From a virus, in IMG/VR virus record IMGVR_UViG_3300034272_000564, positions 1-43,313 of that record: a stretch of 43,313 nucleotides of DNA; one strand, written 5' to 3'. Both the position numbers and the translations under genes were made by a program. This document shows positions 6,478 through 42,598 of this stretch, one piece after another. Each line of letters begins with the position of its first letter. Positions within the stretch are counted from its first letter, which is position 1. The notes below the pieces were generated by a model. That model had not been told where the DNA came from, ran no database searches, and worked only from the letters and a program-made list of their open reading frames with translations.

Positions 6478-6990
6478 TTAGGCAGAAAGAATTTTAGATA
6501 GAGCGTTAATTGTTGCTGCAATTCTTCCGATATCACGCAATTGCTCTACTGAATATCCTTCTTCCTTTAATGTTTCATAATGCGCTTTCACACAAAAGTG
6601 ACACTTTCCAATAATTGAAGATGCCAAAGAGTAAGCTTCAAACTTAGCCTTTGTTGTTCCTCCATGCGATGTAATGGCATTCATTCTTAATTGTGCTGGA
6701 AGACCCTTAAGCGCTGGATCATCTGCCATCTCAATGAATGGGTACCATACATTGTTCTGAGCCATAATTGAACCAGCAGTAAGGGCTGCATTCTTTTCAA
6801 CTTCATCTGTTGCGCTTGCAACAATAAATGCAAGCAGCTTAGAGTTTCCAGTTGCAAAAGCTGCAGCAATTGACAAGTATGTCGCTTGCTCTGAATCAAT
6901 AGTTGACCTATTAATTACTGCATCAAGGTTTAGTTTAATGTCTTTTGCGTAGTCTGGAAGGGATTCTTTTAGCTGTTCTACCCATGACAT
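6478..6990 (-). CDS. ahpD: AhpD-family alkylhydroperoxidase (carboxymuconolactone decarboxylase fold)
   Basis: The 170-residue protein matches AhpD along its length. The catalytic relay is intact: Glu118, Cys130, Cys133 (CHFC) and His137, the same numbering as the M. tuberculosis enzyme. In actinobacteria AhpD re-reduces AhpC using electrons passed from dihydrolipoamide and also has weak peroxidase activity. The gene directly follows ahpC with a TAATG overlap (stop TAA 6992-6990, ATG 6990-6988), so the partners are translationally coupled. An AhpCD pair in a phage suggests acquisition from an actinobacterial host and a role in keeping infected cells free of peroxides or peroxynitrite. Confidence 0.92.
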   Translation of the reverse strand: MSWVEQLKESLPDYAKDIKLNLDAVINRSTIDSEQATYLSIAAAFATGNSKLLAFIVASATDEVEKNAALTAGSIMAQNNVWYPFIEMADDPALKGLPAQLRMNAITSHGGTTKAKFEAYSLASSIIGKCHFCVKAHYETLKEEGYSVEQLRDIGRIAATINALSKILSA

Positions 6991-7526
6991 TATAGAGTTT
7001 CTCCACCAAGGGATCTATTACAAGCACAGAGTTCGCCAGTCTGTAGTGCATCTAGGACACGAAGTGTCTCCTCTGGATTTCTCCCCACGTCTAGGTTATT
7101 GACTGTAACATGCTGAATGATGTTGTCTGGGTCTACAATAAATGTTGCACGGTATGTAACTCCAGAAGGGTGGTGTACGCCCAAATCGCTTGCAAGCTGG
7201 CGTCCTGTATCTGCAAATGACCATGAATTTGTCTTCTTTAAATCATCATGTGCATTACGCCATGCAATTTTACAGAATTCATTATCAACTGATCCAGTCA
7301 TAAGAACTGTATCACGGTCATTAAAATCATTTACTAGTGCATCATATGCAACAATTTCTGTTGGACAAACAAACGTAAAGTCCTTTGGATAGAATGCAAT
7401 CACTTTCCATTTGCCTGGAAAAGAATCTTGATTAATTACTTCAAATGAAGAGTCGTCATACGACAACGCTCCAGGTTTAACTCCAGTAACGGCAAAGCTA
7501 CCGAGCTTATCTCCTACAGTTTTCAT
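6990..7526 (-). CDS. ahpC: Alkyl hydroperoxide reductase C (2-Cys peroxiredoxin)
   Basis: The 178-residue peroxiredoxin has the peroxidatic Cys54 in DFTFVCPTE and C-terminal Cys167 and Cys169 in GELCACN, the three-cysteine pattern of actinobacterial AhpC. SVDNEFCKIAWRNAH and SGVTYRATFIVDP are also typical. The start is ATG at 7526 with AAGGAG four bases before it; an in-frame Met at 7664 exists only because the frame stays open through two tRNA genes and is not used. The enzyme reduces H2O2, alkyl peroxides and peroxynitrite in the cytosol and is recycled by AhpD, encoded next. The gene lies 32 bases after tRNA-Arg and is probably on the same transcript as the three upstream tRNAs. Confidence 0.96.
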   Translation of the reverse strand: MKTVGDKLGSFAVTGVKPGALSYDDSSFEVINQDSFPGKWKVIAFYPKDFTFVCPTEIVAYDALVNDFNDRDTVLMTGSVDNEFCKIAWRNAHDDLKKTNSWSFADTGRQLASDLGVHHPSGVTYRATFIVDPDNIIQHVTVNNLDVGRNPEETLRVLDALQTGELCACNRSLGGETL

Positions 7527-7558
7527 AGTTCTCCTTATATATAAGTGGGAATTCCCCG

Positions 7559-7630
7559 CACCCCTGGCTGGAATCGAACCAGCGACCAACAGATTAGAAG
7601 TCTGTTGCTCTTCCGCTGAGCTACAGAGGT
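7559..7630 (-). tRNA. tRNA-Arg (anticodon TCT)
   Basis: Acceptor ACCTCTG/CAGGGGT, D-stem GCTC/GAGC, anticodon stem ACAGA/TCTGT with loop CTTCTAA (anticodon TCT), T-arm GCTGG TTCGATT CCAGC, discriminator G. It reads AGA/AGG, codons favoured by this AT-rich genome over the usual actinobacterial CGN. CCA is not encoded. Confidence 0.93.
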
Positions 7631-7634
7631 ATCG

Positions 7635-7707
7635 CTGGGAATGCAGGCATCGATCCTGCGACATTCGAATTAACAGTTCGACGCTCTACCATCTGAGCTA
7701 ATTCCCA
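7635..7707 (-). tRNA. tRNA-Asn (anticodon GTT)
   Basis: Acceptor TGGGAAT/ATTCCCA (7 perfect pairs), D-stem GCTC/GAGC, anticodon stem TCGAA/TTCGA with loop CTGTTAA (anticodon GTT), T-stem GCAGG/CCTGC, discriminator G. The T-loop reads ATCGATG, so the nearly invariant T54 is A, which would disturb the T54-A58 pair. It lies four bases from tRNA-Arg and tRNA-CAT on either side. Confidence 0.92.
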
Positions 7708-14603: not shown

Positions 14604-14788
14604 CAGTTAACCTTAAATGAATTTTTGTGACCATCTGGACATTCCCAACTCATGGTCAGAGACACTGAATCCCAAAAATATTCTTCTGCATCTTTATCGC
14701 ATTTTGCACAAGGCTTTTTCCCGCCAAATTTTTCAAGTTCTGGAGACAGAAGTTCTTCTTTTTTAAAGAACTCATCAAGATTTGGCAT
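14603..14788 (-). CDS. Zinc-ribbon protein, 61 residues
   Basis: MPNLDEFFKKEELL leads to CAKC and then WECPDGHKN, so a C-C ... C-H metal site is probable (residues about 27-55). It overlaps the end of recA by 14 bases and the next gene by TGATG. Many phages carry such ribbons in replication operons; the function is unknown. Confidence 0.72.
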   Translation of the reverse strand: MPNLDEFFKKEELLSPELEKFGGKKPCAKCDKDAEEYFWDSVSLTMSWECPDGHKNSFKVN

Positions 14789-15779
14789 CTATTTCCTCAA
14801 TAAGCTTATCCACTACTTCTGGATTTTCTCTTAAGTAAGTTACAGCTTTTGCACGACCCTGAAGTCTTTCTCCATTAACAGTATACCAAGCTCCACCCTT
14901 TTCAACTGCTCCAACCATTTCTGCAACATCTAAAGTTTCACCTACTAGGTCTACCCCTAAAGATTCTCCTTGGTAGTAGAAGTCGTATTGTCCTGAAAGG
15001 TTAGGGGGGCCGAGCTTGTTGTAATCAATAATCCAATTGACAGGCCTGCCAACTCTTTGTTCAATAATTTTGTCACCGACTTTAACGCCAGCCTTGATAG
15101 CATTAGCCTCAGCCTCAGAAGACCAAAGCTTAATGACTGTGGAAGAAAAGAACTTAACCGCCATTCCTCCTGTTGGTATGTGGGAGGCATGCATAGATCC
15201 AAACTGATTTCTTTGCTGTGAGATGAGAACCAATAATGTATTTTTGTTTGCATAATTTAACATTTTGACCGCATGGGTCATATCCTTTGCTTCTGCTCCG
15301 ATTTGCTTTGTATCTTGCAAATCTTTCATTTCATTTCCATCTTTTTCAAAATAAATTGCTGGTAACAGCGCTGAAATAGAGTCGACAACAATAATGTCAA
15401 CCCCTGCATCCATTAGCTTTGTAGCAACATCAACCATATCATTGACTGTCTTTGCTGGAGAGTAAATAAGGGAAGATGAATCTACTCCAAGCATCTCTGC
15501 CCACGACTGATCGTAAGATGCTTCTGCATCAATCCATGCACACGTCTTGCCTTCTTTTTGTGCCAATGCAATCATCTGCAGACAAAAAGAAGACTTTCCT
15601 GCAGACTTATTTCCCCACACAAGAACCTGTCGTCCGTATCCTAGACCACCTTTTAGGGCCATATTAAGCCCAATGCTAGGAGTCTTTTGTTTTTCAACTT
15701 TTACATCTTGTGCTGCTTTTACTCTTGCTCTTGTTTTTGGATCTAATCCTGCTAGGATGTCATCAATCGCTATAGTCAT
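14775..15779 (-). CDS. recA: RecA-like recombinase
   Basis: The 334-residue protein matches the RecA ATPase core: Walker A GNKSAGKSS from residue 56, WIDAEASYDQSWAEMLGV (as in the RecA Asp-Ala-Glu motif), Walker B IIVVDSISALLP, then SQQRNQFGSM and PTGGMAVKFFSS in the DNA-binding loop region. It is like the RecA carried by actinobacteriophages and cyanophages and should drive strand exchange in recombination-dependent replication and repair. It has its own promoter (extended TATAAT) in the 32-base gap after mazG, and is followed by nuclease genes. Confidence 0.93.
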   Translation of the reverse strand: MTIAIDDILAGLDPKTRARVKAAQDVKVEKQKTPSIGLNMALKGGLGYGRQVLVWGNKSAGKSSFCLQMIALAQKEGKTCAWIDAEASYDQSWAEMLGVDSSSLIYSPAKTVNDMVDVATKLMDAGVDIIVVDSISALLPAIYFEKDGNEMKDLQDTKQIGAEAKDMTHAVKMLNYANKNTLLVLISQQRNQFGSMHASHIPTGGMAVKFFSSTVIKLWSSEAEANAIKAGVKVGDKIIEQRVGRPVNWIIDYNKLGPPNLSGQYDFYYQGESLGVDLVGETLDVAEMVGAVEKGGAWYTVNGERLQGRAKAVTYLRENPEVVDKLIEEIDAKS

Positions 15780-16201: not shown

Positions 16202-16406
16202 CTTTTGCCTTTAGCTTAAATGTAAATGTTTGATTATCTGAGTTGTAATCAACCTGTAATTCTTGATCTTCTGTGCCTGCATTTAAAAATGCATCAGTTG
16301 GAACAGTTATCGTACCTAATGTTTCAATAGCAGCAATAAGTATTTTTGGCACACTTAAAGTACCAAAAACTTCTTCAGCAGTAGAAACCCTTATCTCTTC
16401 TGTCAT
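16155..16406 (-). CDS. Small acidic protein, unknown function
   Basis: The 83-residue product (MTEEIRVSTAEEVFGTLSVP ... FTFKLKAKDE) looks like a beta-rich acidic protein. I recognise no family. Its ATG overlaps the polymerase stop (ATGA), so it is coupled to dnaE. It could be a polymerase accessory, judged only by position. Confidence 0.65.
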   Translation of the reverse strand: MTEEIRVSTAEEVFGTLSVPKILIAAIETLGTITVPTDAFLNAGTEDQELQVDYNSDNQTFTFKLKAKDEPGADNNQLITDFE

Positions 16407-19400
16407 TTTATCTCCTTTATATTTAAAGTACCGTCATCTAGTTTAGACAACGTAACCTTACATTTCATTCCTTCACGCATTTTAGCCAACGTCATTTTGT
16501 ACATGGCGGGAAAAGCAATTGCTCTAGTTAAATTTTTATCCTTGTCAGAAAGAACTATATGGCTCATCTGCTTACCAGCTTTAGTAGTATAAGGAGTAAA
16601 GTTTACAACAATGTACTCTTCATCATTTAAGTCGTAAGCCTTTCTATATAGATAATCTACAAAAATATCTTGTGACTCTGGATTGATATCTGAAACTTTA
16701 ACATACCTTGCAATTCTGTTGTCTCCTACAAGAATAAAGTACATCTGACCTGTTTCAATTTGGGTCTGTTCTGTATGGAATAACCCTATGGATCCAGTCT
16801 CATCGACCAGCTCTACTCTAGCCCACCCATTACCACGCTTAATGCTTTTTACCATGCCGAACATTACAAATGAACCCAAATCATCAAACTCTTCAATTGG
16901 TCTTGCTTGCGCCTTAATTCTAGGGGGTATGCCTTCTAGATTAAATGTAGGGATTCCTAAATATTCGTAGTAATTGTCTTTTTCATTTCCTTGCCTTTTG
17001 TTATCAGGAAACGCAGCACCGCCGATGGCGTTAAGAGCAGTAACAGCACGGCTATTAATGCCAGAACCCTTTTTTGATGCTTTCTCAATAAAGTCAGCAT
17101 AATCATTAAATGGTCTTCTTTCTATTATTTTATTTGCAATACCGTCTGAGATAAACTTTACCTCAGCCAAACCAAATCTAATCGCATTGTCTTGAAGGGA
17201 AAAGTAAACCTGTGATTCATTAATGTGTGGAAGCAATACCTTAAGGCCTAATCTTTTTGCTTCAATCAGGTATTCTGTTCTGGCGTCCTTATCATTTTCA
17301 TTTTTAAGGATTGAAAACATAAACTCAAGCGGGTAATAAAACTTAAGCCAAGCAGTATAATAACTAAGCATAGAGTAAGCAACAGCATGGGAGCGGTTAA
17401 AAGAATAACCAGCATGCGCTTCAAAATCATGCCATAGCGCTTCGGCTTTTTTCTTAGTAATGTGTTCTGAAGCCCCAGCAATAAACTTATCCTTGAACTG
17501 GTCAAACTCTTTTGCATCTTTTTTCTTTCCAATAATCTTGCGGACCTTATCAGCCTCTGCCCAAGTCATACCGCCCAAGTGTACGCATGCCTGCATAACT
17601 TGCTCTTGATATATAATAACACCATATGTATTCTCGGTAAAAGGCTTCATAATTGTGTGCATATAATCTACAGCCTCATTGCCATTCTTACGATTGATGT
17701 AAGCAGCACCCACTGTATTCATGGCGCCAGGACGAACAAGAGCATTAGAAGCAGCAAGATCTTCAAATTTATCTACGCCCATTTTAATTAAAAGGTTTGT
17801 GTATGGAGTTGCTTCTGCCTGGAATACGCCTTTTGTATACCCATCGTTTAGCATCTTGTAAACATTAACATCGTCCATTGCCATCTCAGAAAGATTAATT
17901 GTCTTTCCGTGCCTATCCTTAATAGACTTTAATGTATCAGATATTACGGAAAGTGTCTTGAGGCCCAGCGCATCCAGCTTAATAAGGCCTATGTCTGCAA
18001 CCGTATCCATATCGTATGCAACTACTGGAATTCGACCAGAAACTTTATCCTGTGCATCTTCACGAGATTCAACTGGCGCAAACTTTCTTAAATCATCTTT
18101 TGCAACAACGACACCAGCAGCATGAACTCCTACTGACCTGATTCTTCCACGAAGCCTATCCGCAAGCCAAACAACTTCTGGGTACCGCATTCTAAATTCT
18201 TTTGTATTTGGAGAATCTATAAAGTCTTCAAATGTATCTACAGATTTTAGTGCACGATTAACCTCTTGCAGTGGAACCATAAATACACGAGCAGCGTCTC
18301 TAACAACACCCTTGTCTTTAAAATAAGTGTATGTAGAAATAGAAGCAACGTGTTTAAACTTTTTCTTTAAATAATCTTTAACTTCTTTTCTACGACGGTC
18401 TTCAAAATCTGTATCGATATCTGGAAAGTCGTTTCGCTCTTCATTAATAAACCTAAAGAAAAGCAAATCATATTTAATGGGATCTACATCCGTAATTCCT
18501 AATGTATAACAAACTAAAGATCCAGCAGCCGATCCTCTGCCTGGGCCAACGGTAATATTATTTTCTTTAGCCCAATTAATCATGTCCCCAACAACAAGAA
18601 AATACGAAGCAAAATTTTTCTTAGCAATAATGCCAAGCTCTTCGTTAAGCCTGTCTATATAAATAGGGTCTGAGGCCTTCTGTAGCCTCTCTAAGCCTCT
18701 TTCAGCCAACTTCCTTAGTCTTTCATCGGCATCCGTCTTTGGCACTGGCAGGAGGTCTAATCCTTGAGAAAACTCATAATCTCCAATCTTATTGGCAATT
18801 TCCATTGTATTTTCGTATATGTCTTTACGTGATATTCCAGCCTTATTAAAGTCAGACTCAATCTCTGAGCGTGACTGTATAAACAAATTCATGTCTTGAA
18901 ATGAGATTCTACGATCAGGATAAAGATAGTTAAATCTATCTAACATGTCCTTCATGTTTCTAGACATATCAAAATCCATATCCTTGTCCGCTTTTGGAGA
19001 TGTAGATAGAATTAGTAGTGCTTCTTCTAGGATTCTGTCTTCTTCTTTAGCAAAGTGAGCATCTCCTGTTGCTACCGCCTTAATGCCAAGCTCATCTGCA
19101 AGCTCCAATAGCTTTGAGTTTATTTCTTGCGGATTGTGAGATTGAACCTCCACATAAAAATCATCGTGAAAAGTTTTTTTAAAATCTTGAAGTATAAGCT
19201 TGGCTTCTGAAAATTCGCCTTTTTCGATGCACTTACTAATAAGTCCATTAAGGCATCCGCTAAGTACAATAATGCCTTCTGCATATTCTTTTAGTATCTC
19301 TCTATCAATACGTGGCTTATGGTAGAAGCCTTCGTTCCATGCAAGTTCTTGCAAAGTATTAATATTCTCCAACCCCTTTTTATTTTTCGCTAGTAAAATA

Positions 19401-19672
19401 ATATGGTTATAGGCCTGAATAGACTTATCTGTTTTAGATGATCTATCAAACCTATCGGTTGGAGAAATATACGCCTCAACACCAAGAATTGGCTTAATGC
19501 CAGTTTCCTTTGCGGCAATTTGCATATCTCTGTGTGACGAGAGAGTACCATGGTCTGTAATTGCAATCGCAGTTTGCCCAGCATCTAACGCTGCTTGGCA
19601 TAATTCTTTAGGTGAATTTAGTCCATCCATTAATGAATAGTAGGAGTGAACATGTAGGTGTGTAAAGCTCAT
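16403..19672 (-). CDS. dnaE: DNA polymerase III alpha subunit (DnaE, C-family)
   Basis: The 1089-residue replicative polymerase has the DnaE layout: PHP domain opening FTHLHVHSYYSLMDG with metal-ligand histidines, GPGRGSAAGSL, catalytic PDIDTDF at about residue 414 and the third Asp in KLDALGLKTL near 562, then helix-hairpin-helix region (GGAAFPDN), and a C-terminal OB-fold (GMVKSIKRGNGWARVELVDETG). The start is ATG at 19672, overlapping the upstream TAA (TAATG) with AGGCGG before it, rather than 18 bases upstream at 19690. Actinophages often carry a DnaE of this kind instead of a family A or B enzyme. No clamp or clamp loader is seen in the window, so it probably uses the host clamp. Confidence 0.96.
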   Translation of the reverse strand: MSFTHLHVHSYYSLMDGLNSPKELCQAALDAGQTAIAITDHGTLSSHRDMQIAAKETGIKPILGVEAYISPTDRFDRSSKTDKSIQAYNHIILLAKNKKGLENINTLQELAWNEGFYHKPRIDREILKEYAEGIIVLSGCLNGLISKCIEKGEFSEAKLILQDFKKTFHDDFYVEVQSHNPQEINSKLLELADELGIKAVATGDAHFAKEEDRILEEALLILSTSPKADKDMDFDMSRNMKDMLDRFNYLYPDRRISFQDMNLFIQSRSEIESDFNKAGISRKDIYENTMEIANKIGDYEFSQGLDLLPVPKTDADERLRKLAERGLERLQKASDPIYIDRLNEELGIIAKKNFASYFLVVGDMINWAKENNITVGPGRGSAAGSLVCYTLGITDVDPIKYDLLFFRFINEERNDFPDIDTDFEDRRRKEVKDYLKKKFKHVASISTYTYFKDKGVVRDAARVFMVPLQEVNRALKSVDTFEDFIDSPNTKEFRMRYPEVVWLADRLRGRIRSVGVHAAGVVVAKDDLRKFAPVESREDAQDKVSGRIPVVAYDMDTVADIGLIKLDALGLKTLSVISDTLKSIKDRHGKTINLSEMAMDDVNVYKMLNDGYTKGVFQAEATPYTNLLIKMGVDKFEDLAASNALVRPGAMNTVGAAYINRKNGNEAVDYMHTIMKPFTENTYGVIIYQEQVMQACVHLGGMTWAEADKVRKIIGKKKDAKEFDQFKDKFIAGASEHITKKKAEALWHDFEAHAGYSFNRSHAVAYSMLSYYTAWLKFYYPLEFMFSILKNENDKDARTEYLIEAKRLGLKVLLPHINESQVYFSLQDNAIRFGLAEVKFISDGIANKIIERRPFNDYADFIEKASKKGSGINSRAVTALNAIGGAAFPDNKRQGNEKDNYYEYLGIPTFNLEGIPPRIKAQARPIEEFDDLGSFVMFGMVKSIKRGNGWARVELVDETGSIGLFHTEQTQIETGQMYFILVGDNRIARYVKVSDINPESQDIFVDYLYRKAYDLNDEEYIVVNFTPYTTKAGKQMSHIVLSDKDKNLTRAIAFPAMYKMTLAKMREGMKCKVTLSKLDDGTLNIKEIK

Positions 19673-19887
19673 TAATATCCGCCTAAGCATTCGTTTCGAG
19701 TATGATAAAGTCTAATCTTAGTCATTGTCTTTTTGTTTGGTGCATATAAATCTTCTTTACAGCATCCACATTTCATATGCCATTCTCTAGCAAAGAAATC
19801 GTATACTGCACCTATATAATTTTTATACTTATTTGAAACAAATGTCTCAAATGGATCTGGTATCTCTAAGTTAATCATTTCCGCCAT
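19672..19887 (-). CDS. Small Cys-rich protein, possible zinc site
   Basis: The 71-residue protein (MAEMINLEIPDPFETFV) has MKCGCCKEDLYAPNKK and a later NECLGGY, so a CxCC-x-C metal site is likely. Start ATG at 19887 lies 12 bases after tRNA-Leu; an upstream Met would lie inside the tRNA and is rejected. No clear ribosome binding site is seen. The TAA overlaps the polymerase ATG, so translation of dnaE may depend on this gene. Confidence 0.65.
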   Translation of the reverse strand: MAEMINLEIPDPFETFVSNKYKNYIGAVYDFFAREWHMKCGCCKEDLYAPNKKTMTKIRLYHTRNECLGGY

Positions 19888-20715: not shown

Positions 20716-21720
20716 TTATTTCTCATGGGTCCAAGATTGATACTCAATATTGGAAACTGCGTTCTTAATACAGGCTTTAATTTCCTCTTCGGTCATGTCG
20801 CCAGCATCTTTTGCATCATGTGGATATATCTTACCATATTCATAAGAAGCCCACAAGAGGTCTTTATTTTTTAATCTGGAGGCTATGCTGCTTGCAAGCT
20901 CACGACCAGCGTGATCAGAATCAGTCATTAGCGTTACCTTATTAAAATATCTATTTATCAGAGATACATTCTCTGTCGATATGTGGCCTCCTAAAGTTGC
21001 AATAACATTGGGGAACCCAGCTTGATGCACACGGATTGCATCAAAACTAGATTCCACAATAATAACGTTATCTCCTATTTTTTTAGCACGATGAATATTA
21101 AACATAGTTTTACTTCTAGGCAGGTTGGTGCTATTTTTAAATTTCTTTTCTGATATAGATCTACCAACTAGTCCGACTGGCAATCCGTCTGGGCTATGGA
21201 CTGGAACAGACACCATGTTTGTCGGGGAAGAGTATCCCAGCCAAAAATAATTTATGGACTCTTCATTGATCCCACGAGACTTAAAATACTCTCTTGCGCT
21301 TAGGTTTCCTGCTAAGTCTGCATGTAGTCTATCTAATATTTCTTGTGGGAATTCTTCAAATTCAGGCTTTTCTTCAAGAGCATCATTAAGAAGATCATCA
21401 AAATTTTCTAGTGTTTCTGCTTCTTTTGAGTAGACGTATCTCATTGCTTCAAAATCATTTTTATGTAAAACTTTTTTAACCAACTCAATTATCGATCCAG
21501 TTTCGCCACACGAAGGATTAAAGCATAGCCACGCACCAGTCGTCTTACTGATACTGCAGCTTGCGCTATGTCTATTAGAATGAAATGGGCAGTAAAAAGA
21601 TATCTCTATATCTGTCTCACCAGCAAACTGCAAGCCAAGGCTTTTTACGATTGCCTTTATATGCTGCTTAGAGTACTGCGTGGTATCAGCTTTCCTTGCG
21701 TAATTGCTTCGTGCTGCCAT
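20716..21720 (-). CDS. DnaG-type primase
   Basis: With ATG at 21720 (AAGAAGG before it) the protein has 334 residues. A CHC2-type zinc domain (YCPFHSNRHSASC ... WLCFNPSCGETGS) starts at about residue 43, as in bacterial DnaG, and a TOPRIM core follows with VIIVESSFDAIR (Glu) and LMTDSDHAGRE (Asp-x-Asp). It lacks the long C-terminal helicase-binding domain of bacterial DnaG. A start at 21771 would add 17 residues but doubles the overlap with the upstream gene. It makes RNA primers beside the DnaB-type helicase encoded upstream. Confidence 0.9.
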   Translation of the reverse strand: MAARSNYARKADTTQYSKQHIKAIVKSLGLQFAGETDIEISFYCPFHSNRHSASCSISKTTGAWLCFNPSCGETGSIIELVKKVLHKNDFEAMRYVYSKEAETLENFDDLLNDALEEKPEFEEFPQEILDRLHADLAGNLSAREYFKSRGINEESINYFWLGYSSPTNMVSVPVHSPDGLPVGLVGRSISEKKFKNSTNLPRSKTMFNIHRAKKIGDNVIIVESSFDAIRVHQAGFPNVIATLGGHISTENVSLINRYFNKVTLMTDSDHAGRELASSIASRLKNKDLLWASYEYGKIYPHDAKDAGDMTEEEIKACIKNAVSNIEYQSWTHEK

Positions 21721-21947
21721 GCCTTCTTCTTTCCTACGTATGTTCCATAGAGTGTCATTAAAAACATCCATGTTGTGCCGTCAAATTCTACCGAAAAGTT
21801 GGTGTCTATGTCAAGTACCCTAAGATACCCTTTGTCTCTCATTTGATGGGTTAGCATGCTTTCGTATTGATGCTTTACCCTAACCATATCAGAGTCATCT
21901 AGAAATTCAACTTTAACTTGAAATCTTTTTATCGGTTTGTGATTCAT
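21657..21947 (-). CDS. Conserved-looking small protein between helicase and primase
   Basis: The 96-residue product (MNHKPIKRFQVKVEFLDD ... YLRVLDIDTNFSVEFDGTTWMFLMTLYGTYVGKKKAW) has an alternating beta pattern and a clear closing motif (YGTYVGKKKAW). It overlaps the DnaB gene by 35 bases and the primase start by 64. ATG at 21968 is an alternative start. The two-sided overlap in a compact operon supports a real gene. I know no named family; proteins of this kind sit near helicases in actinophages. Confidence 0.7.
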   Translation of the reverse strand: MNHKPIKRFQVKVEFLDDSDMVRVKHQYESMLTHQMRDKGYLRVLDIDTNFSVEFDGTTWMFLMTLYGTYVGKKKAWQHEAITQGKLIPRSTLSSI

Positions 21948-23175
21948 TGTTTTGGAATGGATTCTCATAAATTTCTTTGACGATACCCCTGTTGATATCC
22001 CAGTCTAAGTATAAACCAAATTCATGCCCGTGCCTATTTTTTCGTGAAACGACCTCAATCATATTTGTTCCTGGGTATCTATGCACCGCCATAGCCATAT
22101 CTGCATCATACTCAATAGCTTTTGACCAGGCAACTTGTGACATCATTGGTGGATTGTCTTGATCAGATACATCGTCTGCAGTGGCTGCTGTGATGTCAAT
22201 GATAGGAATATTGTTAGATACCGCCAACATTTTAAATTCACGAGAAACGTTTCGATTTCTTTCAACTTCAGAATTACTTCTTTTATTGTCATTAAATAAT
22301 TGATGATAATCAAGAATAACTAAATCTGGTTTGTGCTGATCGATCTTACCCTGAATGGTGGCGGGAGTGACCTCAACATTTCCTTCGTTAGAAATAAGAA
22401 TAAAGCTATTTTTATCTGCAAACTTTTTAGAGCTCCATGCTCTAAAGCTATCTATATTAATATCTCCTTTTGAGAAATCTGAGGCCTTAAATAGTCCAGA
22501 GCCAAGCATTGTGTATATGCGGTCACGCATATTTTCTGGGGACATTTCAAGGGATACGATCATAGGCTTAAAGCCTTGTTCCCAAGCCTTGCAGGCCAAA
22601 TATGATGTAAACCAGGTCTTACCACGCCCTGGCCAGCCGATAGCAACGATAAGGTGCCCTGGAGCCATACCTGTTGGGTATGCAAGATCTATGGCCTCAA
22701 AACCAGTTTTAATGCCTGGAGAACCACCCATCTCGCTAGACCTTACCTTTAACAATTCCATATATCTAATTGCTGATTCTGAGTCTGTTACATCTAGGTC
22801 TCTTACATTATTAGTAAATCTGCTAAGACCAGCCAATTGAGATTGCATGTTTTCAAGAACTCTAGATGCAGCATCTTCTTTAAGAGATGATCCTGCTCTA
22901 AGAATAATTGTTTTTAGTTTGTTTGATATAAACTCATTCTTAAGCGTATCTAAATAATATCCAGTCTGTCCCTTTACGTCTAGAGGCTCAAAGTCCTTAA
23001 ACTTTTCTTGCAGGATTCCCGCCTCTGGAACAGCCTTAAATTTGTAATAATAAGCTTTTAGCCCGTCCCAAATATCTTTATGCGAAGTAAATAGATCGTC
23101 TACATTGTCTGCAAGAAGTGTGCTTATGTCTTTATTTTTGCATACCGCCGAGATTAGCTCTGCTTCTGTATTCAT
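21913..23175 (-). CDS. dnaB: DnaB-type replicative helicase
   Basis: The 420-residue protein has an N-terminal DnaB-like helical domain (ELISAVCKNKDISTLLADNV) and a RecA-fold motor: GIKTGFEAIDLAYPTGM, Walker A GWPGRGKT at 180-187, VSLEMSPENMRDRI, Walker B DLVILDYHQL, and RKNRHGHE with DWDINRG near the end (DnaB motif 4 region). It should unwind DNA at the fork. Overlap with the next gene upstream is ATGA. Confidence 0.95.
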   Translation of the reverse strand: MNTEAELISAVCKNKDISTLLADNVDDLFTSHKDIWDGLKAYYYKFKAVPEAGILQEKFKDFEPLDVKGQTGYYLDTLKNEFISNKLKTIILRAGSSLKEDAASRVLENMQSQLAGLSRFTNNVRDLDVTDSESAIRYMELLKVRSSEMGGSPGIKTGFEAIDLAYPTGMAPGHLIVAIGWPGRGKTWFTSYLACKAWEQGFKPMIVSLEMSPENMRDRIYTMLGSGLFKASDFSKGDINIDSFRAWSSKKFADKNSFILISNEGNVEVTPATIQGKIDQHKPDLVILDYHQLFNDNKRSNSEVERNRNVSREFKMLAVSNNIPIIDITAATADDVSDQDNPPMMSQVAWSKAIEYDADMAMAVHRYPGTNMIEVVSRKNRHGHEFGLYLDWDINRGIVKEIYENPFQNNESQTDKKISS

Positions 23176-34358: not shown

Positions 34359-37300
34359 GTTTTAATACTCACATTCATTGGGTTTCCTACTATTTTAGCA
34401 TTTAGCTTAGCATCTTGTCCAATAGCTTGCTTAGTCATCGACACCACTTGTCTAACAAAGGCATCAGTGTTCATTCCTTCAGATGGATAAATGTTTTGTG
34501 TCAAATTTATAACACCAGTTGCAGAAGATTGATGTACTGGTTCCAGCATCTTAGATGCCTGCTTGACATCATATCTAGGTGTGGAGTATGGTATTTTAGC
34601 CATGTTAGGAATAATCATTCCTCCAAATGCCATTTCTGGTCCACGATCTCCAACGATTGTAGGAACCTTTGGATTAAGCTTCATTGTTCCGTACCCAGCT
34701 TTTTCAACTCTCATTGTTCTAAGGTATGCGTTATCCACTCCAGTAATTCTATACTTTTGATTACCTTGTGTAAATACACTTCCGACTGAAGAATCGATAC
34801 CTTGTGCTAGCAAAGACATTGAATCTATTGTCATTATTTGTTTTGCTGTGGAGCCTTTGCCAACCGTAACACTTTTAACTCCAGGGTTTGATGCTGTAGC
34901 TTTAAATACTGTATTTGCCGTTCCCTTTACATCCATCTTTTTATTATTAATGTAAATGTCTCCAGTCATAGACTTTACCTCAATACCCTTTGCAGACAAC
35001 CCTTTTGTAACCGCATCGTTTACTCCACCTAATAATCCAAGAGCTTGATCAGTTACATCTACTGGAGTAAGTCTGGCCTTAGGGTGTGTTGGCTGCTTAA
35101 CCTTAGGTATAAATCCAGGACGTGCTGTTTCTGCAACACCGACTAGCCCTGCTGCGTCTTGTCTTCCAGCATTAGGGTTTTCGTCAGTTCCAGTTTTTAA
35201 ATAATCTTTAAGCTCTTTACCTGCAGCAATTGCATTTATTGCTAGAGTGGTCATTGCCTTGTTGACATCATCAATCTTTTGTCTTTCTGTTGCAATTTTT
35301 TTATTTAGCTTGTCTAACTCTACTGCAGCAAGGGCGGCGTTGTCGCTAAGTTTTTGCTGTCCGTCATTAATTGATTGTATTCTAGCTTCTAGGGGAGCAT
35401 TTGTGCGCTTAAGCGCATCTTCAATTGCTTTCTTTTGAGCATTGTACTGCATTGTAGACTCTAGCTGCTTAACATCTAAACCAGCTTGCTGTGCGGTTGC
35501 TGTATCGCCTCTTGCTATAGCAGCATCGTATTCTATTTTCTTTTTAGCAATTTCATTAGCTAGATCGGATTCTTGTTTCGCTGCGTCAAGCGCTCTCAAC
35601 CTTGAATCTGCAAGCTTATTGTTAGCATCTATTTGCTTTTGTAAATTCTTAAGTTGCTCTCTAGTATTTATTTGCGCCTTAACGCTTTGACCTTTAGCTG
35701 CATTTTCTAAAACCTTTTGTTGATCTGTTAACCTCTTTAAATTTGCATAATTTTCTTTTAAGAACCCACCCTTGTTTGCTGCGGTTATAGATTGAGATAC
35801 GGCATCTGCTACTTTTGAAAGAGTGCTTACAGCCTCTGCTCCTAGTTTTGAAAGGTCTCCAGTAAAACCCTTAGCAGCAAGATTCATTTTTTCAAATAAG
35901 CTGACAACTGTGTCTGCAGGGTTTATAATCTTTTTTAGCTCTGGATTTTGCTTAATCATTTCTTCTCTAGTTTTTGCAGTTAAAACAGCTCTAGAGGATT
36001 CTAGTTTATTTAGTTTATTAAGCATAGCTTCTTGCGCTTGATATTGAGTTAATGCTTTTGTATTGCCAGTTTTATCTGCTTTAGCAGCTTTTTTACTTTG
36101 CTCAACCATATCTAAAATTCCAGCATCTATAGCATTTAGACCTGTACTTACTGCTTGAGCCCCTTCACGACCACCTTCTGCTGAGGCAGGGACGTAGTTG
36201 TCTATTGCGGCAACTGCTGCGTCTTGTCCAGTTTTAATATTTCTAAATGCACGATTGCCTACAGTAAAAGCTCCAGCTTTTTCTGCTTGATCTGACATCT
36301 TAAACATTGCAAATATTTTTTTACTTGCTTCATCTGCTGACAATCCAGCAGCCATTAATGCAGTTTTTATATCTATTGCTACTTGTGGAAGATCGGACGC
36401 TTTAGATTGATTAATTAATTTAATCTGATCAGAGTATACTTCGGTAACCTCTTTTTTAAGTTTCTTATACTCTTGAATTGTCATAGATATTGGCATACCA
36501 GAATCTTGCATGCTTTCGTAAAGCAACTGATTTCTTTCTCTTATTGCCTCTATGTTTTTAACTGTGTCTGCAAGTTTTGAATTGTAATCAGTAAACTTAA
36601 GTCCTGCTTTTTTGGCAGCTTCTTCTGTTAATCCGTATTGGGTTATTCCGACTCTTAAGTGTTCATTATGATCTTTTATTCTTCTATTAATAATAGCAAA
36701 TGTTGTAGCAGCTATTGCAACTCCAACATTTAATCTAGTAACAGCCATTCTTGCCATTGCGCCAAATCTAGCAAGTTTACTTGTGCTATTGGCAGCAGCT
36801 TCAAGTTTTGCTCCGTAAGCAGTTAAAGCTCTTGAATTACCTGGGTGTGCACCGACGATAGGAAGCTGTTCTACTGCTCTAGTTGCTCCCATTGGTGCTC
36901 TCATCTTGCTCATAGAAGCTATTGGAGTCTTTGCTCCACCGCCACCCATGCCCATAGCACCCATACCAAGCATTGAGCCTAGCATTCCGCCCATCATGTC
37001 TCCTCCAGGAAGTCCTGTCATCTTACCTAATGCTGAGCCACCTTGGAATCCGAGTAGCTGCATAATCATCATCTTAATGAATCCACCAGCGTTATATCCT
37101 TGAGGTATAGGGGTTTGATTAGGAACAATTCCACCAGCATTCTTTGGAACAAATATTTCTGGTCCCTTTTCTCCTACAAGATATGGCTTGCCAGCGTTTA
37201 CTGGTCCACCCATTTCTCTTGGCTGTATTTCAAATATTAATTTCTTTAATGCTTCTGTCATTGGAGTATCTTTTTTAGAATCCCAATTCATATATTTCTT

Positions 37301-40300
37301 TCTTAATATATCTTTATCAATAGGAGAAAGCTGTTTAACTATGCTTCTGTCTGATATTAGATTGCTTGCAGCCATTCTAATAACAGCATCAAGTGAGTCT
37401 GGCTCTAGGCCATTCTTTAATGTGCCATCAGGCATCTTAACATATCCATATGGCTTTTCTTTTGCTAATTCTGCAGCAAACTTATCATACAAATGTTTTT
37501 GTGTATTTTTTCTTAATCCGCTATTTGCAAAAAGCTTTTCTGCCATTTCAATTGAAAGAGAGTTTACTCCCCAAGGAGCTGACTCATACATGCTTGGCTT
37601 CGGTGCACCAGTTGGACCAAAGCCTGCCCCAATTCTGTGCATCGCTTTACCCTTAAGTACATTTCCAATCATTCCGCCAATATTAAATCCATTTGCCTGA
37701 GTTTTAAAATCGTTGTCAGAAAGACTTGCTGATAATCCTTTTTGTCTACGCTTTAGTTCATCAGCTGCAATCATCTTAGCAATAGCGGCAGGTGTCATTG
37801 TTTTTTCTGGCGCTATCTTTAATGAAGAATGAACTCCATGAAGATCTTGATAAGTTTGTCTTCTGGCTTCATCTAATCTATCAATCATTTTATTATAAAC
37901 AATTTTTTCTTCTGAGTTTAAGGTGAATGTTGATATGGTTTTCTTTAGCTGAGGAAGAGCCCTATTAATTTCTTCAAGCATGCGATCATTATATTGATCT
38001 GCTGTCATTCCTTGTGGAATATCTGCAGTAGACTCCGCAAAGAATTTCTTTGCGCCGCTTCCCTTTACACCCATTAAATTAACTAATGCTTGGTGTTTAA
38101 ACGAAGGAATGGTTGCAGAGTAATCTCTTGGACCTGACGCTGTTGCAAAAACTCCAGCGGGCCCAACGTCTGCAAGAATATTTCCAGAAAGATTGCCTCT
38201 TCCTAAATCTTTATCTCCACGTAATGCTGATGCAACTAATTGTCTAAAATATTGATCTTCGTCAAACTTACCATCTTGATTAGCTATAGCAGGATTGTAT
38301 TTAGACTCAAGAGCAAGTAATTTTCTTTTACCTGTTGGATCTGTTGGGTCTCTCATAACAACAACCTTTTGATTAGGGGTCTGTAGTCCATGCACTTCAC
38401 GGGCGATTTGTGTTGCTCTTATTTCAGCAAGAGCAGCCTTTTCATCTAGGACTGGCTTAACAAAAACCTTATCGCCACCCTTAGAATACAGCCCTCCAAT
38501 TCCAGCAACTGGGAAACTTCTACCAGAGGTTGGCTCTATCAGTTCATCATAACTAGTTACTGGAGATTTGCTAAATCTTGAATTTGATACTGCTTGGCTA
38601 GCTTTTTCCATTGCAGTTTTTGCTGCTCTTTGTGCCTCTACCTGTTTAATTGTTCTAGGCATTCCTAAGAACAGTCTACCGCCGCCAAATAATTTTTGTG
38701 CAAACTGGCCTGGGATTTGCCCGCCTTCATTTGCCGCAATTTCCTGTTTGATGGGAAGCTTTTGTCCTTTTGTTAAAAGCATTCTGAGCATCTTAGTAAT
38801 CATATGACCACGCTCAATAACTGGCATACGCTTTATAAGGTTTGATGCATTTCCGTAATTTAGTTGTTTTGCTAATACGTCTGAGATTCTTTGAGCTGAT
38901 TGTTGATACAGAGGAACTCTATCTACAAATTTACCAGCTGTCATTCTAGATAAATGATTAGTAAAGGTGTTAATTGTGCTTGATCCAGCTTGAGCTAGGT
39001 ACGCATTACCTCTAGTTCTATTGCTCCTTATTTTTCCGTCTTCTTCTGTAAAGAAATTTCTATCTTTGTCTAAATGCTCTGATGCATAATCAAAAGTTTT
39101 ATCTGGTCTAGTAAATGAGTTAATAACTTTTTGCATAGATACTTGATCTATGTCTGGTCTGGACATAAATGTAGAAATTAAACTCCTGGTCGGAAGAACT
39201 GCTCCAATTTGTGGTCTTCCCCCAGGCTTTAACTCAGAAGGCTTGTCTTTCCAAAGCAAATCTTTATATTTTGCCTTAGATACACTTCCATCTTTATTTG
39301 TTATACTTCTTCCCATGCCCTGCATGTCAATGAAGTCTTGCATTTTTCTTGCCTGTTCAATTCTTATTGAATTAAATAATTGTCTGTTTACTCTTCCAGT
39401 TTTTAAATCTTTTGATTTAGACAAAGCCTCTTCATAATCTCTTTTAGCCATTGAGATTGCTTCGTCTTCAGAAAAACCAATGTTATTAAGTACAGCTGAG
39501 TCATGTAAGATAACTCTATTCTTTAATGTTGAATCGTAGTTGCTATCGGCATTTCTTTCAAGCCATGCCTTTAAGCCTTCCATGAAATTTTGAGAAATTC
39601 CTCCGCCAATATTTCTACCCATTCCAGATGTATTTCCTGGTCCGCCATTCAAAGCATACATTAATGGCATATTGTTCTGTGCAATATTTGGTGGTATGAC
39701 TGCCTCACCAGGAGTAAGAACTACAGGAACTTGTCCCCCAGTATTTCTAAATACTGGTCTTCCTCCAAGAAGGTTTTCAATTACTGGCATGTTTGCTTCT
39801 GTTCCAGCTTTGTTAATTACAAATGCTCCAGCCTCGGCTGTTGTGTGGTATGTATCAGTGTTTCCAGTTCCTGGTACTATTCCACCCTTTGCAAACTTTG
39901 GCTTTGTTGTTTGAATGTTATACCCTGCACCTGATGTTCTTACTCCGCCAAGTGCTCTTGCAATTCTATCTGCTATTTCTTTTGTAGATCCTTTATGAAA
40001 CATCTCTTTCATATTTGATTTTCCAGTTGCTGGGTCTACTACAGGCTGTGATGTTAGTGGGACAGTTGTTAGATTTATAGTTCTGCCTTGACCAGCCGCT
40101 ATTTTTTGAGAAGTTTCGGCAAGCATTGCTTCAACTGTTGCATTTAATTGAATTACTTTTAATCTTGCCTCATCGGCTGTTATCTTACTTTGCTGAAGCT
40201 GTCTGACAATTAATGCCGTTTCTTGTGCAGCAAGTTCTGTAATTTCTGAAAATTCTGGTAGCAGGGCTTGATAAGAATCAGATAAGCTTGATGTAATTGT

Positions 40301-42598
40301 TCCTGTTGCCATAACTTCTTTTTTCAACAAAGTTATTTCTGCTTCTGATTGCATTGCAATTGCTGCTGTCATTGCATGCCATTTTGCAGCTTCTTGAGAA
40401 ACTATACCCGTAGATATACCGTTAACAGAAGTTACTCCTGGAATCTTTGGCAAATCTTGATTCATATAAGCTTGAGGATTTTTTCCAATTCTAACGTTTA
40501 CTGGACCTGCGCCTGGGACTGTGCCAAATATAGTTCCCATCTGAGGGCTTCCAGCAGGAATCATGTGGGACATATCTCTTGAATACGGCTGTCCAATTAA
40601 TGGATTATTTTTATCAACCATTCTTCCACTTGGATTACCTGCGGCAATTACATTACCAGCAATGGTAGAAATTCCTGGCTGTACCGCAACCTTAGCGGCG
40701 TTTGCTTTCATCTCAAGACTATCAAAAGATGCTGCAAGAGTATTTACTGCATTTGTTAAAACAACAGTAGCTTCTGCGTCGCTGTAGAATGTTGTACTTA
40801 AACCTTGTGCCGCAGCATTAGCTGCTATTATTTCTGGAGTAAGTAGCTTAAATCCCTTTCCTCCTGAAGCCATCTGCCTTAATGAGAATATTCCCTTTGT
40901 GACATAACCAATAAAGTTTGCCATAACACCAGTTAACATAATAAGTGGTCCAGCAAATGCAGTTAATCCACCAAGTGCGTTTAAAAATGTTTTTACTGGT
41001 CCTGGTAGTCCTCGGAAGAATTTAATTATTCCGTCTACTACTTCTAAAACCTTTGTGCTAATTTTTAAGAATTGCTCTCCAACGCTTGCAAGATCTGCTT
41101 GAACTGAAGCAAGTGCTCTTTTAAATTTTCCAGAAGCGGATTCGGTTATCATTCCTAATTCTCGTTCTGCAATACCTGCAAGCTCTGCAGTGCTAGCGCC
41201 CATTAGCTCCATAACCTGAACGGTTTGAGATCCTTCTCTTCCTATATTTTCAAAAAGTGCTGAGAGTCTTGCGTACTGGAATTTACCAAAAAGTTGTTCT
41301 ATGGCTCTTGATTTACTTAAAGGGTCTAGCGTGTCTAGGGCTGCCTGAAGATCTAAGATGGTATCCGTTAGGTTTCCAGCATTGGAAGTCACAATACTAT
41401 CTAGATCAATTCCAAATCCAGTAAATAATTCTTTTGCAACTTTTGTTGGGTTAATAAGAGATGCCATTGCTGACTTAATTGCATTAGCACCTTCAGATGC
41501 ATTTACTCCGCCTTCTTTCATTGCTGTTAGATACAGAGCTAAATCTTGAACGTCTCCTCCTAGAGACTTTACAACTGGCCCAGCTTTAGGGATTGCTTCA
41601 ACTAAATCTTGTAGAGAAGTAGAGGTTTGGTTTTCAACTGCGTTAAGGAAGTTAATTGATTCGGATAGCTCTTCTGTATTTTGTTTAAATGCATTTTGAA
41701 TAGCAAGGGTTGCTTTCATAGCTTCTTGTCTATCAATTTCTCCAAGCACTGCAAGTCTCGATGTTTCTCTTGTTGCTTCTAGAAGCTCTGTTCCTTGCTG
41801 TCCTGTTGCAGCTAAATCCGCAGCCAGTGCAATTGTATCTTTAAAAGCAAGACCATACGAACCTGCAAGTTCTCTTGCTGTATCTGAAACATCTTTTCTT
41901 ACTTGAGCTAGCTCTGCAGATGATACTGCAGCTAGTCCGCCATAAACTTTTGTTAATCTAACTAATTCTTCGTCTGCAGCTCTAAATGCTTTTTGTGCAG
42001 CAGCACCAAATGCCATAAGCGGAACAGTTAGTCCTACGGTTAACTGACGACCAGCCCATTGCGTATTTTTACCCCAGTTGATAAGCTGGTTAGATCCGTC
42101 AAGCATAACCTTGTTCATGATGGCTAGCTCTTGTCTTGCAATTGCTGTCTTATTTTTTACTTCATCTAATCCCTTTGCAACCATTACGTTGTATTGCATT
42201 AGGCCCTGTGCGTTTTTGCCGACTGGTTGAACTATAGCATTCTGAAGCATTACCTGCTGCTTAGCTAGGTCACGAATTAGTGTGCTTGTTTTCTTTGTGT
42301 GTCCATTCCAAGCATTGTAGTATTGACCTAGCTTTAGCCTGCCTGAGTCTAAATTTTTACCAAATTTTTCTACATCTGAGGTAAGGGAAACAAAGTGCGA
42401 TGAAAACTGTCCTGTTGAACGCATTGTTTCTGCGAAGGACTTGTTCATTACTGCAATTTGATTTGCAAGTTTTGCGTTTGTTCCTGCTGTTGTTTCTTGC
42501 AGTTTTACGAGTTGGGAAGTAACCGCAGCTAGCTGAGTTCTTAAACTCGTAAAGTCTGCGTTGGCGGTAATATTGGTAGTTATTATATTATCTGCCAT
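34355..42598 (-). CDS. Tail tape measure protein, giant (2747 residues), with kinase-like insert
   Basis: This is the longest gene in the window and the classic tape measure. Residues 1-500 are helical with ELYKE-like repeats and TP901-type core (LVRLTKVYGGLAAVSSAELAQVRK ... LYLTAMKEGGVNASEGANAIKSAMASLI). A hydrophobic span (LTAFAGPLIMLTGVMANFIGYV, about 535-560) and a Gly/Met-rich stretch (about 1841-1889) followed by VAIAATTFAII are candidate membrane-entry parts. Pore/ejection motifs LTPGEAVIPP and LVGEKGPEIFVP recur. Residues about 1360-1525 hold a kinase-like segment (KVFVKP, ALAEIRATQIA, SALRGDKDLGRGN, NILADVGPAG). At about 0.15 nm per residue it predicts a tail near 400 nm, less if the insert is excluded. 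No lysozyme or peptidase motif was seen. Confidence 0.93.
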   Translation of the reverse strand: MADNIITTNITANADFTSLRTQLAAVTSQLVKLQETTAGTNAKLANQIAVMNKSFAETMRSTGQFSSHFVSLTSDVEKFGKNLDSGRLKLGQYYNAWNGHTKKTSTLIRDLAKQQVMLQNAIVQPVGKNAQGLMQYNVMVAKGLDEVKNKTAIARQELAIMNKVMLDGSNQLINWGKNTQWAGRQLTVGLTVPLMAFGAAAQKAFRAADEELVRLTKVYGGLAAVSSAELAQVRKDVSDTARELAGSYGLAFKDTIALAADLAATGQQGTELLEATRETSRLAVLGEIDRQEAMKATLAIQNAFKQNTEELSESINFLNAVENQTSTSLQDLVEAIPKAGPVVKSLGGDVQDLALYLTAMKEGGVNASEGANAIKSAMASLINPTKVAKELFTGFGIDLDSIVTSNAGNLTDTILDLQAALDTLDPLSKSRAIEQLFGKFQYARLSALFENIGREGSQTVQVMELMGASTAELAGIAERELGMITESASGKFKRALASVQADLASVGEQFLKISTKVLEVVDGIIKFFRGLPGPVKTFLNALGGLTAFAGPLIMLTGVMANFIGYVTKGIFSLRQMASGGKGFKLLTPEIIAANAAAQGLSTTFYSDAEATVVLTNAVNTLAASFDSLEMKANAAKVAVQPGISTIAGNVIAAGNPSGRMVDKNNPLIGQPYSRDMSHMIPAGSPQMGTIFGTVPGAGPVNVRIGKNPQAYMNQDLPKIPGVTSVNGISTGIVSQEAAKWHAMTAAIAMQSEAEITLLKKEVMATGTITSSLSDSYQALLPEFSEITELAAQETALIVRQLQQSKITADEARLKVIQLNATVEAMLAETSQKIAAGQGRTINLTTVPLTSQPVVDPATGKSNMKEMFHKGSTKEIADRIARALGGVRTSGAGYNIQTTKPKFAKGGIVPGTGNTDTYHTTAEAGAFVINKAGTEANMPVIENLLGGRPVFRNTGGQVPVVLTPGEAVIPPNIAQNNMPLMYALNGGPGNTSGMGRNIGGGISQNFMEGLKAWLERNADSNYDSTLKNRVILHDSAVLNNIGFSEDEAISMAKRDYEEALSKSKDLKTGRVNRQLFNSIRIEQARKMQDFIDMQGMGRSITNKDGSVSKAKYKDLLWKDKPSELKPGGRPQIGAVLPTRSLISTFMSRPDIDQVSMQKVINSFTRPDKTFDYASEHLDKDRNFFTEEDGKIRSNRTRGNAYLAQAGSSTINTFTNHLSRMTAGKFVDRVPLYQQSAQRISDVLAKQLNYGNASNLIKRMPVIERGHMITKMLRMLLTKGQKLPIKQEIAANEGGQIPGQFAQKLFGGGRLFLGMPRTIKQVEAQRAAKTAMEKASQAVSNSRFSKSPVTSYDELIEPTSGRSFPVAGIGGLYSKGGDKVFVKPVLDEKAALAEIRATQIAREVHGLQTPNQKVVVMRDPTDPTGKRKLLALESKYNPAIANQDGKFDEDQYFRQLVASALRGDKDLGRGNLSGNILADVGPAGVFATASGPRDYSATIPSFKHQALVNLMGVKGSGAKKFFAESTADIPQGMTADQYNDRMLEEINRALPQLKKTISTFTLNSEEKIVYNKMIDRLDEARRQTYQDLHGVHSSLKIAPEKTMTPAAIAKMIAADELKRRQKGLSASLSDNDFKTQANGFNIGGMIGNVLKGKAMHRIGAGFGPTGAPKPSMYESAPWGVNSLSIEMAEKLFANSGLRKNTQKHLYDKFAAELAKEKPYGYVKMPDGTLKNGLEPDSLDAVIRMAASNLISDRSIVKQLSPIDKDILRKKYMNWDSKKDTPMTEALKKLIFEIQPREMGGPVNAGKPYLVGEKGPEIFVPKNAGGIVPNQTPIPQGYNAGGFIKMMIMQLLGFQGGSALGKMTGLPGGDMMGGMLGSMLGMGAMGMGGGGAKTPIASMSKMRAPMGATRAVEQLPIVGAHPGNSRALTAYGAKLEAAANSTSKLARFGAMARMAVTRLNVGVAIAATTFAIINRRIKDHNEHLRVGITQYGLTEEAAKKAGLKFTDYNSKLADTVKNIEAIRERNQLLYESMQDSGMPISMTIQEYKKLKKEVTEVYSDQIKLINQSKASDLPQVAIDIKTALMAAGLSADEASKKIFAMFKMSDQAEKAGAFTVGNRAFRNIKTGQDAAVAAIDNYVPASAEGGREGAQAVSTGLNAIDAGILDMVEQSKKAAKADKTGNTKALTQYQAQEAMLNKLNKLESSRAVLTAKTREEMIKQNPELKKIINPADTVVSLFEKMNLAAKGFTGDLSKLGAEAVSTLSKVADAVSQSITAANKGGFLKENYANLKRLTDQQKVLENAAKGQSVKAQINTREQLKNLQKQIDANNKLADSRLRALDAAKQESDLANEIAKKKIEYDAAIARGDTATAQQAGLDVKQLESTMQYNAQKKAIEDALKRTNAPLEARIQSINDGQQKLSDNAALAAVELDKLNKKIATERQKIDDVNKAMTTLAINAIAAGKELKDYLKTGTDENPNAGRQDAAGLVGVAETARPGFIPKVKQPTHPKARLTPVDVTDQALGLLGGVNDAVTKGLSAKGIEVKSMTGDIYINNKKMDVKGTANTVFKATASNPGVKSVTVGKGSTAKQIMTIDSMSLLAQGIDSSVGSVFTQGNQKYRITGVDNAYLRTMRVEKAGYGTMKLNPKVPTIVGDRGPEMAFGGMIIPNMAKIPYSTPRYDVKQASKMLEPVHQSSATGVINLTQNIYPSEGMNTDAFVRQVVSMTKQAIGQDAKLNAKIVGNPMNVSIKT

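Follow-up and report, generated by a model that had tools for sequence, protein, structure and literature searches.

A kinase-fold module in a viral tape measure protein occupies a slot that relatives fill with an ADP-ribosyltransferase-fold domain or with neither

Tape measure proteins (TMPs) set the length of the phage tail. They occupy its tube until infection, when they are released and, it is proposed, build a channel across the envelope (PMC13033339, PMC11126660); once outside the tail, their destination is the envelope or membrane (PMC13033339, PMC13277306, PMC11126660). In actinobacterial injection systems, TMP-like proteins carry variable functional domains (PMC13277306), and an enzymatic motif in the TMP of mycobacteriophage TM4 is reported to aid infection of cells in stationary phase (PMC1796659). 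Enzymes that phages inject are known to be stored in the head, as with T4 Alt, or joined to head proteins. ADP-ribosyltransferases (ARTs) and kinases have both been described as injected virion-protein fusions, in heads and among polyvalent proteins (PMC5512222, PMC9503650). Here we scrutinized a virus sequence of 43,313 nucleotides, IMG/VR record IMGVR_UViG_3300034272_000564 (the whole stretch is hereafter the window), which encodes a TMP with a kinase-fold module in its central part. A sequence-only reading of the window, hereafter the original prediction, had proposed an ATP-binding kinase-like enzyme at this place that could be an injected effector; its kinase reading is supported. We consider it probable that the module lies in a TMP cargo slot whose interchangeable effector enzymes are delivered to the host at infection.

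An AlphaFold2 model of the module, built from a 22-sequence alignment (residue i of the model corresponds to residue 1318+i of the TMP), forms a single globular domain (predicted local distance difference test, pLDDT, 85.8; predicted template modelling score, pTM, 0.83). It is a two-lobed alpha/beta domain and not a coil, as had been anticipated. The mixed N-lobe comprises strands 34-38, 51-55 and 58-65, helix 68-85 and strands 92-98 and 108-115, and a mainly helical C-lobe follows. K1381 lies on the third strand (58-65) and E1392 in the next helix, the counterpart of helix C (68-85); D1464 and N1469, the predicted catalytic loop D-x4-N, come after helix 129-142, and the predicted metal-binding D1477 stands eight residues past N1469. 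The motifs quoted in the original prediction are all inside the TMP where it had put them, although the assignment of TPNQKVVVM to the hinge did not hold: this is a strand before the hinge (strand 92-98 of the model), and the hinge comes only after the next strand, LLALES (model 108-115). A kinase-like region is present at the proposed residues, approximately 1360-1525, and extends beyond them on both sides.

Foldseek comparison of the model with the PDB returned CtkA as best match (E 9.7e-4, prob 0.97), followed by protein kinases including HipA. With VIA-align, CtkA was again first (Z 10.9 over 202 residues, 4.8 A), followed by MavQ (10.1), HipA (9.9), PI4K-II (9.6), PI3K-delta (9.6), HipT (9.2), LepB (9.2) and actin-fragmin kinase (8.7). 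All of the top 50 have the kinase fold, of the HipA/PI3-PI4-kinase branch that had been named from the motifs, with rank 50 still at Z 7.9, and the sole non-kinase among them is LepB, a kinase-fold RabGAP. By the tool's own benchmark, a model that lacks a clear match reaches Z 7-8 at best and 4-5 at rank 50. The match of the module stands clear of this yardstick, and since the list is free of other folds, the predicted HipA/CtkA/PI3-PI4-kinase-like fold is a firm assignment; the exact place of the module within the kinase superfamily is not firm. Four BFVD entries for large viral proteins (A0A6J5NE85, A0A516M4V9, A0A8T9VLA2 and A0A142CK76) match the kinase model at prob ~0.99-1 with poor TM-scores, and could represent additional kinases carried in the virions of other viruses.

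IMG/VR scans, seeded with the region or with alignments, confirmed 21, 107, 239 and 220 relatives in overlapping sets. Conservation was counted over 57 relatives, as distant as ~46% identity and nonredundant at 90% identity. Lys1381, Asp1464, Asn1469, Asp1477 and Gly1479 are invariant in all 57 and Glu1392 is kept in 98%, so that the order K...E...D-x4-N...DxG read from one sequence exceeds chance. Neither outcome named beforehand as refuting the original prediction, a purely helical coil or a lack of conservation at the Asp, Asn and Lys positions, was thus seen. In the probable nucleotide-binding loop, S1361, F1362, P1363, G1368 and G1369 are invariant, and G1366 and Y1371 are each kept in 98%. 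Every fetched kinase locus has the module once, inside one long open reading frame (ORF). Between the TMP of the window and five relatives, the ratio of nonsynonymous to synonymous substitution rates (dN/dS) was 0.08-0.17 for the module, compared with 0.07-0.12 in the N-terminal block and 0.19-0.24 in the C-terminal part. These values are approximate, being obtained by a counting method, with dS close to 1 or higher in several pairs. By this computation, the kinase module is under purifying selection.

No kinase family was found for the module by sequence in PDB, Pfam, PHROG, PADLOC or NCBIfam; matches to TraB, a lectin repeat and a leucine-rich repeat in those searches were at chance level and unrelated. 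The module had no real match among the isolate phages in the collection, where Enterococcus matches at E 9 were chance, and was absent from the plasmids and bacterial genome contigs searched. A 3.5-bit score on the TMP of phage Muntaha was rejected. HipA_C (PF07804) is absent from the record, Pfam gave no HipA match to the module, and no antitoxin gene lies beside it: the module sits within the TMP ORF, and the neighbors with a PHROG function are tail proteins. With no antitoxin neighbor and no family match, a HipA toxin paired with an antitoxin was rejected.

TMPs with and without the module were found by scanning with the first 583 residues. The TMP of locus L286 shares 65% identity with that of the window over residues 1-1258 and 58% over residues 1794-2747 of the latter, and block comparison showed that both L286 and L294 have no kinase and carry other sequence between the same flanks. 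This sequence bears the ART signature R...S-W-S...E-x-E. The ART module was found on 55 contigs, with R101, S136, E184 and E186 invariant among 35 aligned members. Its model is of moderate quality (pLDDT 73, pTM 0.59), and its structural matches are uniform: the top 50 from Foldseek are all ARTs (best E 5.3e-5, prob 1.00), as are the VIA-align matches throughout (Z 12.2 to 10.2). In Pfam, two members touch ADPrib_exo_Tox and one DRAT, all below cut-off, and there was no match among the isolate phages in the collection. The alternative occupant of the slot in L286, L294 and relatives is thus an ART fold with the R, S and ExE residues in place. As it was obtained on the same carrier family, this result also serves as a control, in that the pipeline does not return kinases by default.

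No TMP carries both enzymes. Among long ORFs, 288 had the kinase, 63 the ART and 0 both, counts that include contigs fetched more than once; a homologous TMP N-terminus was present in 280/288 and 59/63 of these. After removal of identical N-terminal blocks, 96 distinct TMPs carried the kinase, 42 the ART and 0 both, and a further 25 complete TMPs carried neither. Carriers may be nearly identical, with N-terminal blocks 94.7% identical between L181 (kinase) and L302 (none) and 92.6% identical between L233 (kinase) and L367 (ART). On a FastTree phylogeny of 124 N-terminal blocks, the cargo state changed at least 18 times, compared with 41-53 changes for shuffled labels, and kinase versus not-kinase changed 11 times on the same tree; cargo therefore follows lineage, yet has been exchanged repeatedly. 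Because loci were fetched by searching for the kinase, for the ART and for the N-terminus of the window TMP, sampling is biased and these proportions are not frequencies in nature. Exchange also affects module A, which precedes the kinase and is 19-33% identical between TMPs with N-terminal blocks 83-92% identical. The kinase module is hence accessory TMP cargo, fused in frame inside a virion protein and mutually exclusive with ART, on a conserved carrier that holds kinase, ART or neither. In kinase-less L281 (TMP ORF from locus base 9992, 3364 aa), an HExxH-like motif, LNHEFGHSM, in the C-terminal third suggests a metallopeptidase from its sequence, and the same third has a possible lysozyme-like stretch.

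These data lead us to propose the following course of events. The cargo slot would span residues 1000-1794 or so, bordered by Gly-rich linkers, between the conserved N- and C-terminal parts of the TMP, and in the phage of the window it holds a HipA/PI3-PI4-kinase-like module with the putative catalytic set K1381, E1392, D1464, N1469 and D1477. During infection, the TMP would leave the tube for the envelope and cytoplasm of the host. There the module would refold and, with ATP-Mg bound, phosphorylate a host target early, before phage gene expression. In close relatives, the slot holds the ART instead, or neither. Two weak hydrophobic segments (residues 541-563 and 1952-1970) flank the slot; speculatively, both could span the membrane and so place the slot on one side of it. 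Published work on TMP release and injected enzymes, together with two enzyme classes swapped on one carrier, makes an early, TMP-delivered effector the most likely function, and we infer an injected effector with added assurance from the ART swap in the same slot of close relatives.

Several points weigh against this proposal. The predicted globular domain would have to traverse the tail tube in refoldable form. Foldseek TM-scores are low (0.31 to CtkA), the Asn1469-Asp1477 hairpin is unusually short at 8 residues, and in the L080 group Gln replaces Glu1392. In a profile comparison by hhalign with a set of eight sequences, comprising HipA of E. coli K-12 and plasmid homologs, the match was not significant, scoring 12.8 against a median of 16 for column-shuffled controls. 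That alignment, at the same nonsignificant score, pairs K1381, E1392, D1464, N1469 and D1477 with HipA K181, E203, D309, N314 and D332; since shuffled profiles outscore the real one, the register is consistent with kinship to HipA and is no independent proof of it. Finally, LepB stands among the structural matches, so that possession of the fold is no proof of kinase chemistry.

This last point leads to the best surviving alternative, in which the module is still delivered by the TMP and its fold performs other chemistry, such as lipid or small-molecule phosphorylation, AMPylation, glutamylation or noncatalytic regulation of GTPases. The structural neighbors include lipid kinases (PI4K, PI3K, MavQ) and the RabGAP LepB as well as protein kinases (HipA), yet the full K/E/D/N/D set is kept, as in true phosphotransferases, and we regard this alternative as unlikely. 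Similarly improbable is a kinase that acts in the cell producing the phage while tails assemble, for example by phosphorylating the TMP, a tail chaperone or the tail tube, and not as an effector in the next host. TMPs are made late in infection, when such a module would be folded and exposed to ATP, and the neighboring genes are tail genes. However, the module is missing, or its place is taken by the ART, in TMPs whose N-terminal blocks are as much as 95% identical, and near-identical carriers of this kind argue that tail assembly does not need the kinase. We hold it very unlikely that the fold is a structural spacer or pseudoenzyme, serving as a plug or a length adjuster of the TMP: TMPs do tolerate inserts and deletions, and other slot modules show no recognized enzyme signature, but the catalytic residues of the kinase module are invariant, its dN/dS indicates tighter constraint than on the C-terminal TMP part, and the alternative occupant is also an enzyme with its own catalytic residues intact. 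The reading of the motifs as chance features of an ordinary coiled TMP, for which the lack of a sequence-family match could be cited, is refuted by the confident globular model, the kinase-fold-only matches and the conserved motifs, and has negligible probability.

The carrier was identified as a TMP by Pfam PhageMin_Tail at residues 238-438 (E 5.5e-30) and by PHROG tape measure families, the best being PHROG 10030 (E 1.1e-122). Tail protein genes lie downstream, and all its neighbors with a PHROG function are tail proteins. Features of the TMP and of its ART-bearing relatives are collected in Table 1.

Table 1. Coordinates of features of the tape measure protein (positions in the window unless a locus is named)
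Feature	TMP residues	Position	Strand	Remark
TMP gene	2747 aa	34355-42598	minus	largest ORF of window
Conserved N-terminal block	1-583	40850-42598	minus	common to TMPs with and without kinase
Hydrophobic segment	541-563	40910-40978	minus	Kyte-Doolittle peak 1.69
Module A	~1010-1290	38729-39571	minus	similar stretch in kinase-less L311
Gly-rich linker NEGGQIPG		38708-38731	minus	upstream of kinase module
Kinase-fold module	~1344-1594	37817-38569	minus	residues 26-276 of AlphaFold2 model
SFPVxGIGGxY stretch	1361-1371	38486-38518	minus	probable nucleotide-binding Gly-rich loop, from its position
VFVKP	1378-1382	38453-38467	minus	
Lys1381, predicted ATP-binding Lys (VFVKP)	1381	38456-38458	minus	100% of 57 relatives
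ALAEIRATQIA	1389-1399	38402-38434	minus	
Glu1392, helix-C Glu	1392	38423-38425	minus	98% of 57 relatives
TPNQKVVVM	1407-1415	38354-38380	minus	
KLLALESK, last N-lobe strand into hinge	1426-1433	38300-38323	minus	model strand 108-115
SALRGDKDLGRGN	1457-1469	38192-38230	minus	
Predicted catalytic loop Asp1464-LGRG-Asn1469	1464-1469	38192-38209	minus	D, N 100% of 57
NILADVGPAGVF	1473-1484	38147-38182	minus	
Asp1477-Val-Gly1479, predicted metal-binding DxG	1477-1479	38162-38170	minus	D, G 100% of 57
Module B	~1640-1790	37229-37681	minus	recurs in kinase-less TMPs L302, L311
REMGGPV, start of linker GGPVNAGKPYLVGEKGPEIFVP		37199-37219	minus	C-terminal border of slot; same border in ART-bearing L286, L294
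Hydrophobic segment	1952-1970	36689-36745	minus	Kyte-Doolittle peak 1.64
ART module, L286		L286:13991-14683		
ART module, L294		L294:14195-14836		

The isolate TMPs inspected, mostly from Streptomyces and Gordonia phages, share at most ~38% identity with the N-terminal block. Gene order around the TMP resembles that in Streptomyces phages Wofford and Muntaha, which makes an actinobacterial host likely for the phage of the window; the TMPs of these two phages have related N-termini and coil-like sequence where the slot would be. Elsewhere in the window, three host-like metabolic genes are encoded on the minus strand, for an IMP dehydrogenase (3182-4240, E 2.8e-70), a TauD-family dioxygenase (4752-5597, E 2.3e-19) and an AhpC/TSA peroxiredoxin-like protein (6990-7664, E 3.8e-22). 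The phage also has a replication set of its own, all on the minus strand (16403-19690, 14775-15779, 20716-21771 and 21913-23175), consisting of a DNA polymerase III alpha subunit, RecA, a DnaG-like primase and a DnaB-like helicase.

The exchangeable enzyme slot is a larger finding than the kinase module itself. On balance we favor, with some reserve, the broader view that the TMPs of this probably actinobacterial phage group are a delivery platform comparable to polymorphic toxins, in which a hypervariable slot holds interchangeable host-modifying enzymes (kinase, ART and further modules) that enter the cell ahead of the DNA. If so, long-tailed phages could influence the cell directly before any of their genes is read out, and every large TMP would be a place to look for host-takeover or anti-defense enzymes. 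The kinase/ART swap on near-identical carriers makes cargo function directly testable, with the same carrier and a different enzyme, and the TMP is a naturally occurring tail protein that accepts different enzyme domains.

Among described systems, the HipA/HipT Ser/Thr toxin-antitoxin kinases share the fold with the TMP module (Z 9.9 and 9.2), and in both Lys, Glu, D-x4-N and Asp follow in the same order and align in register, albeit at a nonsignificant profile score. Unlike them, the module has no Pfam or NCBIfam HipA match and no HipB or HipS antitoxin, is embedded in a TMP and has a much shorter N-to-D hairpin. The secreted PI3/PI4-kinase-like kinases CtkA and MavQ, both bacterial effectors, are its best structural neighbors (Z 10.9 and 10.1), whereas the module is 11-14% identical to this group in the aligned core and is borne by a phage tail protein. 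Tme and Sle1 of actinobacterial contractile injection systems (PMC11126660, PMC13277306) are likewise TMP-like carriers whose functional domains vary between relatives; they belong to bacterial injection systems and vary in a C-terminal domain, whereas here a phage carries the module in mid-TMP, and the Sle1 paper (PMC13277306) mentions neither kinase nor ART. The peptidoglycan hydrolase motif of the TM4 TMP (PMC1796659) is an enzymatic motif within a TMP that is reported to promote infection, and unlike the cargo proposed here acts on the cell wall and not on intracellular targets. The polyvalent and MuF/portal-fused effectors, including T4 Alt-like ARTs (PMC5512222, PMC9503650, PMC7302621), are virion-fused enzyme domains predicted to be injected and comprise both ART and kinase cargo. 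Their carriers are MuF, portal or other head proteins or large internal polyvalent proteins, in contrast to the TMP found here, and tape measures are unmentioned in the polyvalent and NAD-ADPr papers (PMC5512222, PMC9503650). Their kinases are of a Ser/Thr/Tyr group that has lost the C-terminal subdomain, whereas the TMP module keeps a helical C-lobe and resembles HipA and PI4K. Our search of open-access papers turned up no description of a TMP with an intracellular kinase or ART as cargo, though earlier reports are possible. Injected virion-borne effectors are thus already known, and the TMP as carrier of a putative intracellular kinase or ART cargo is the new element.
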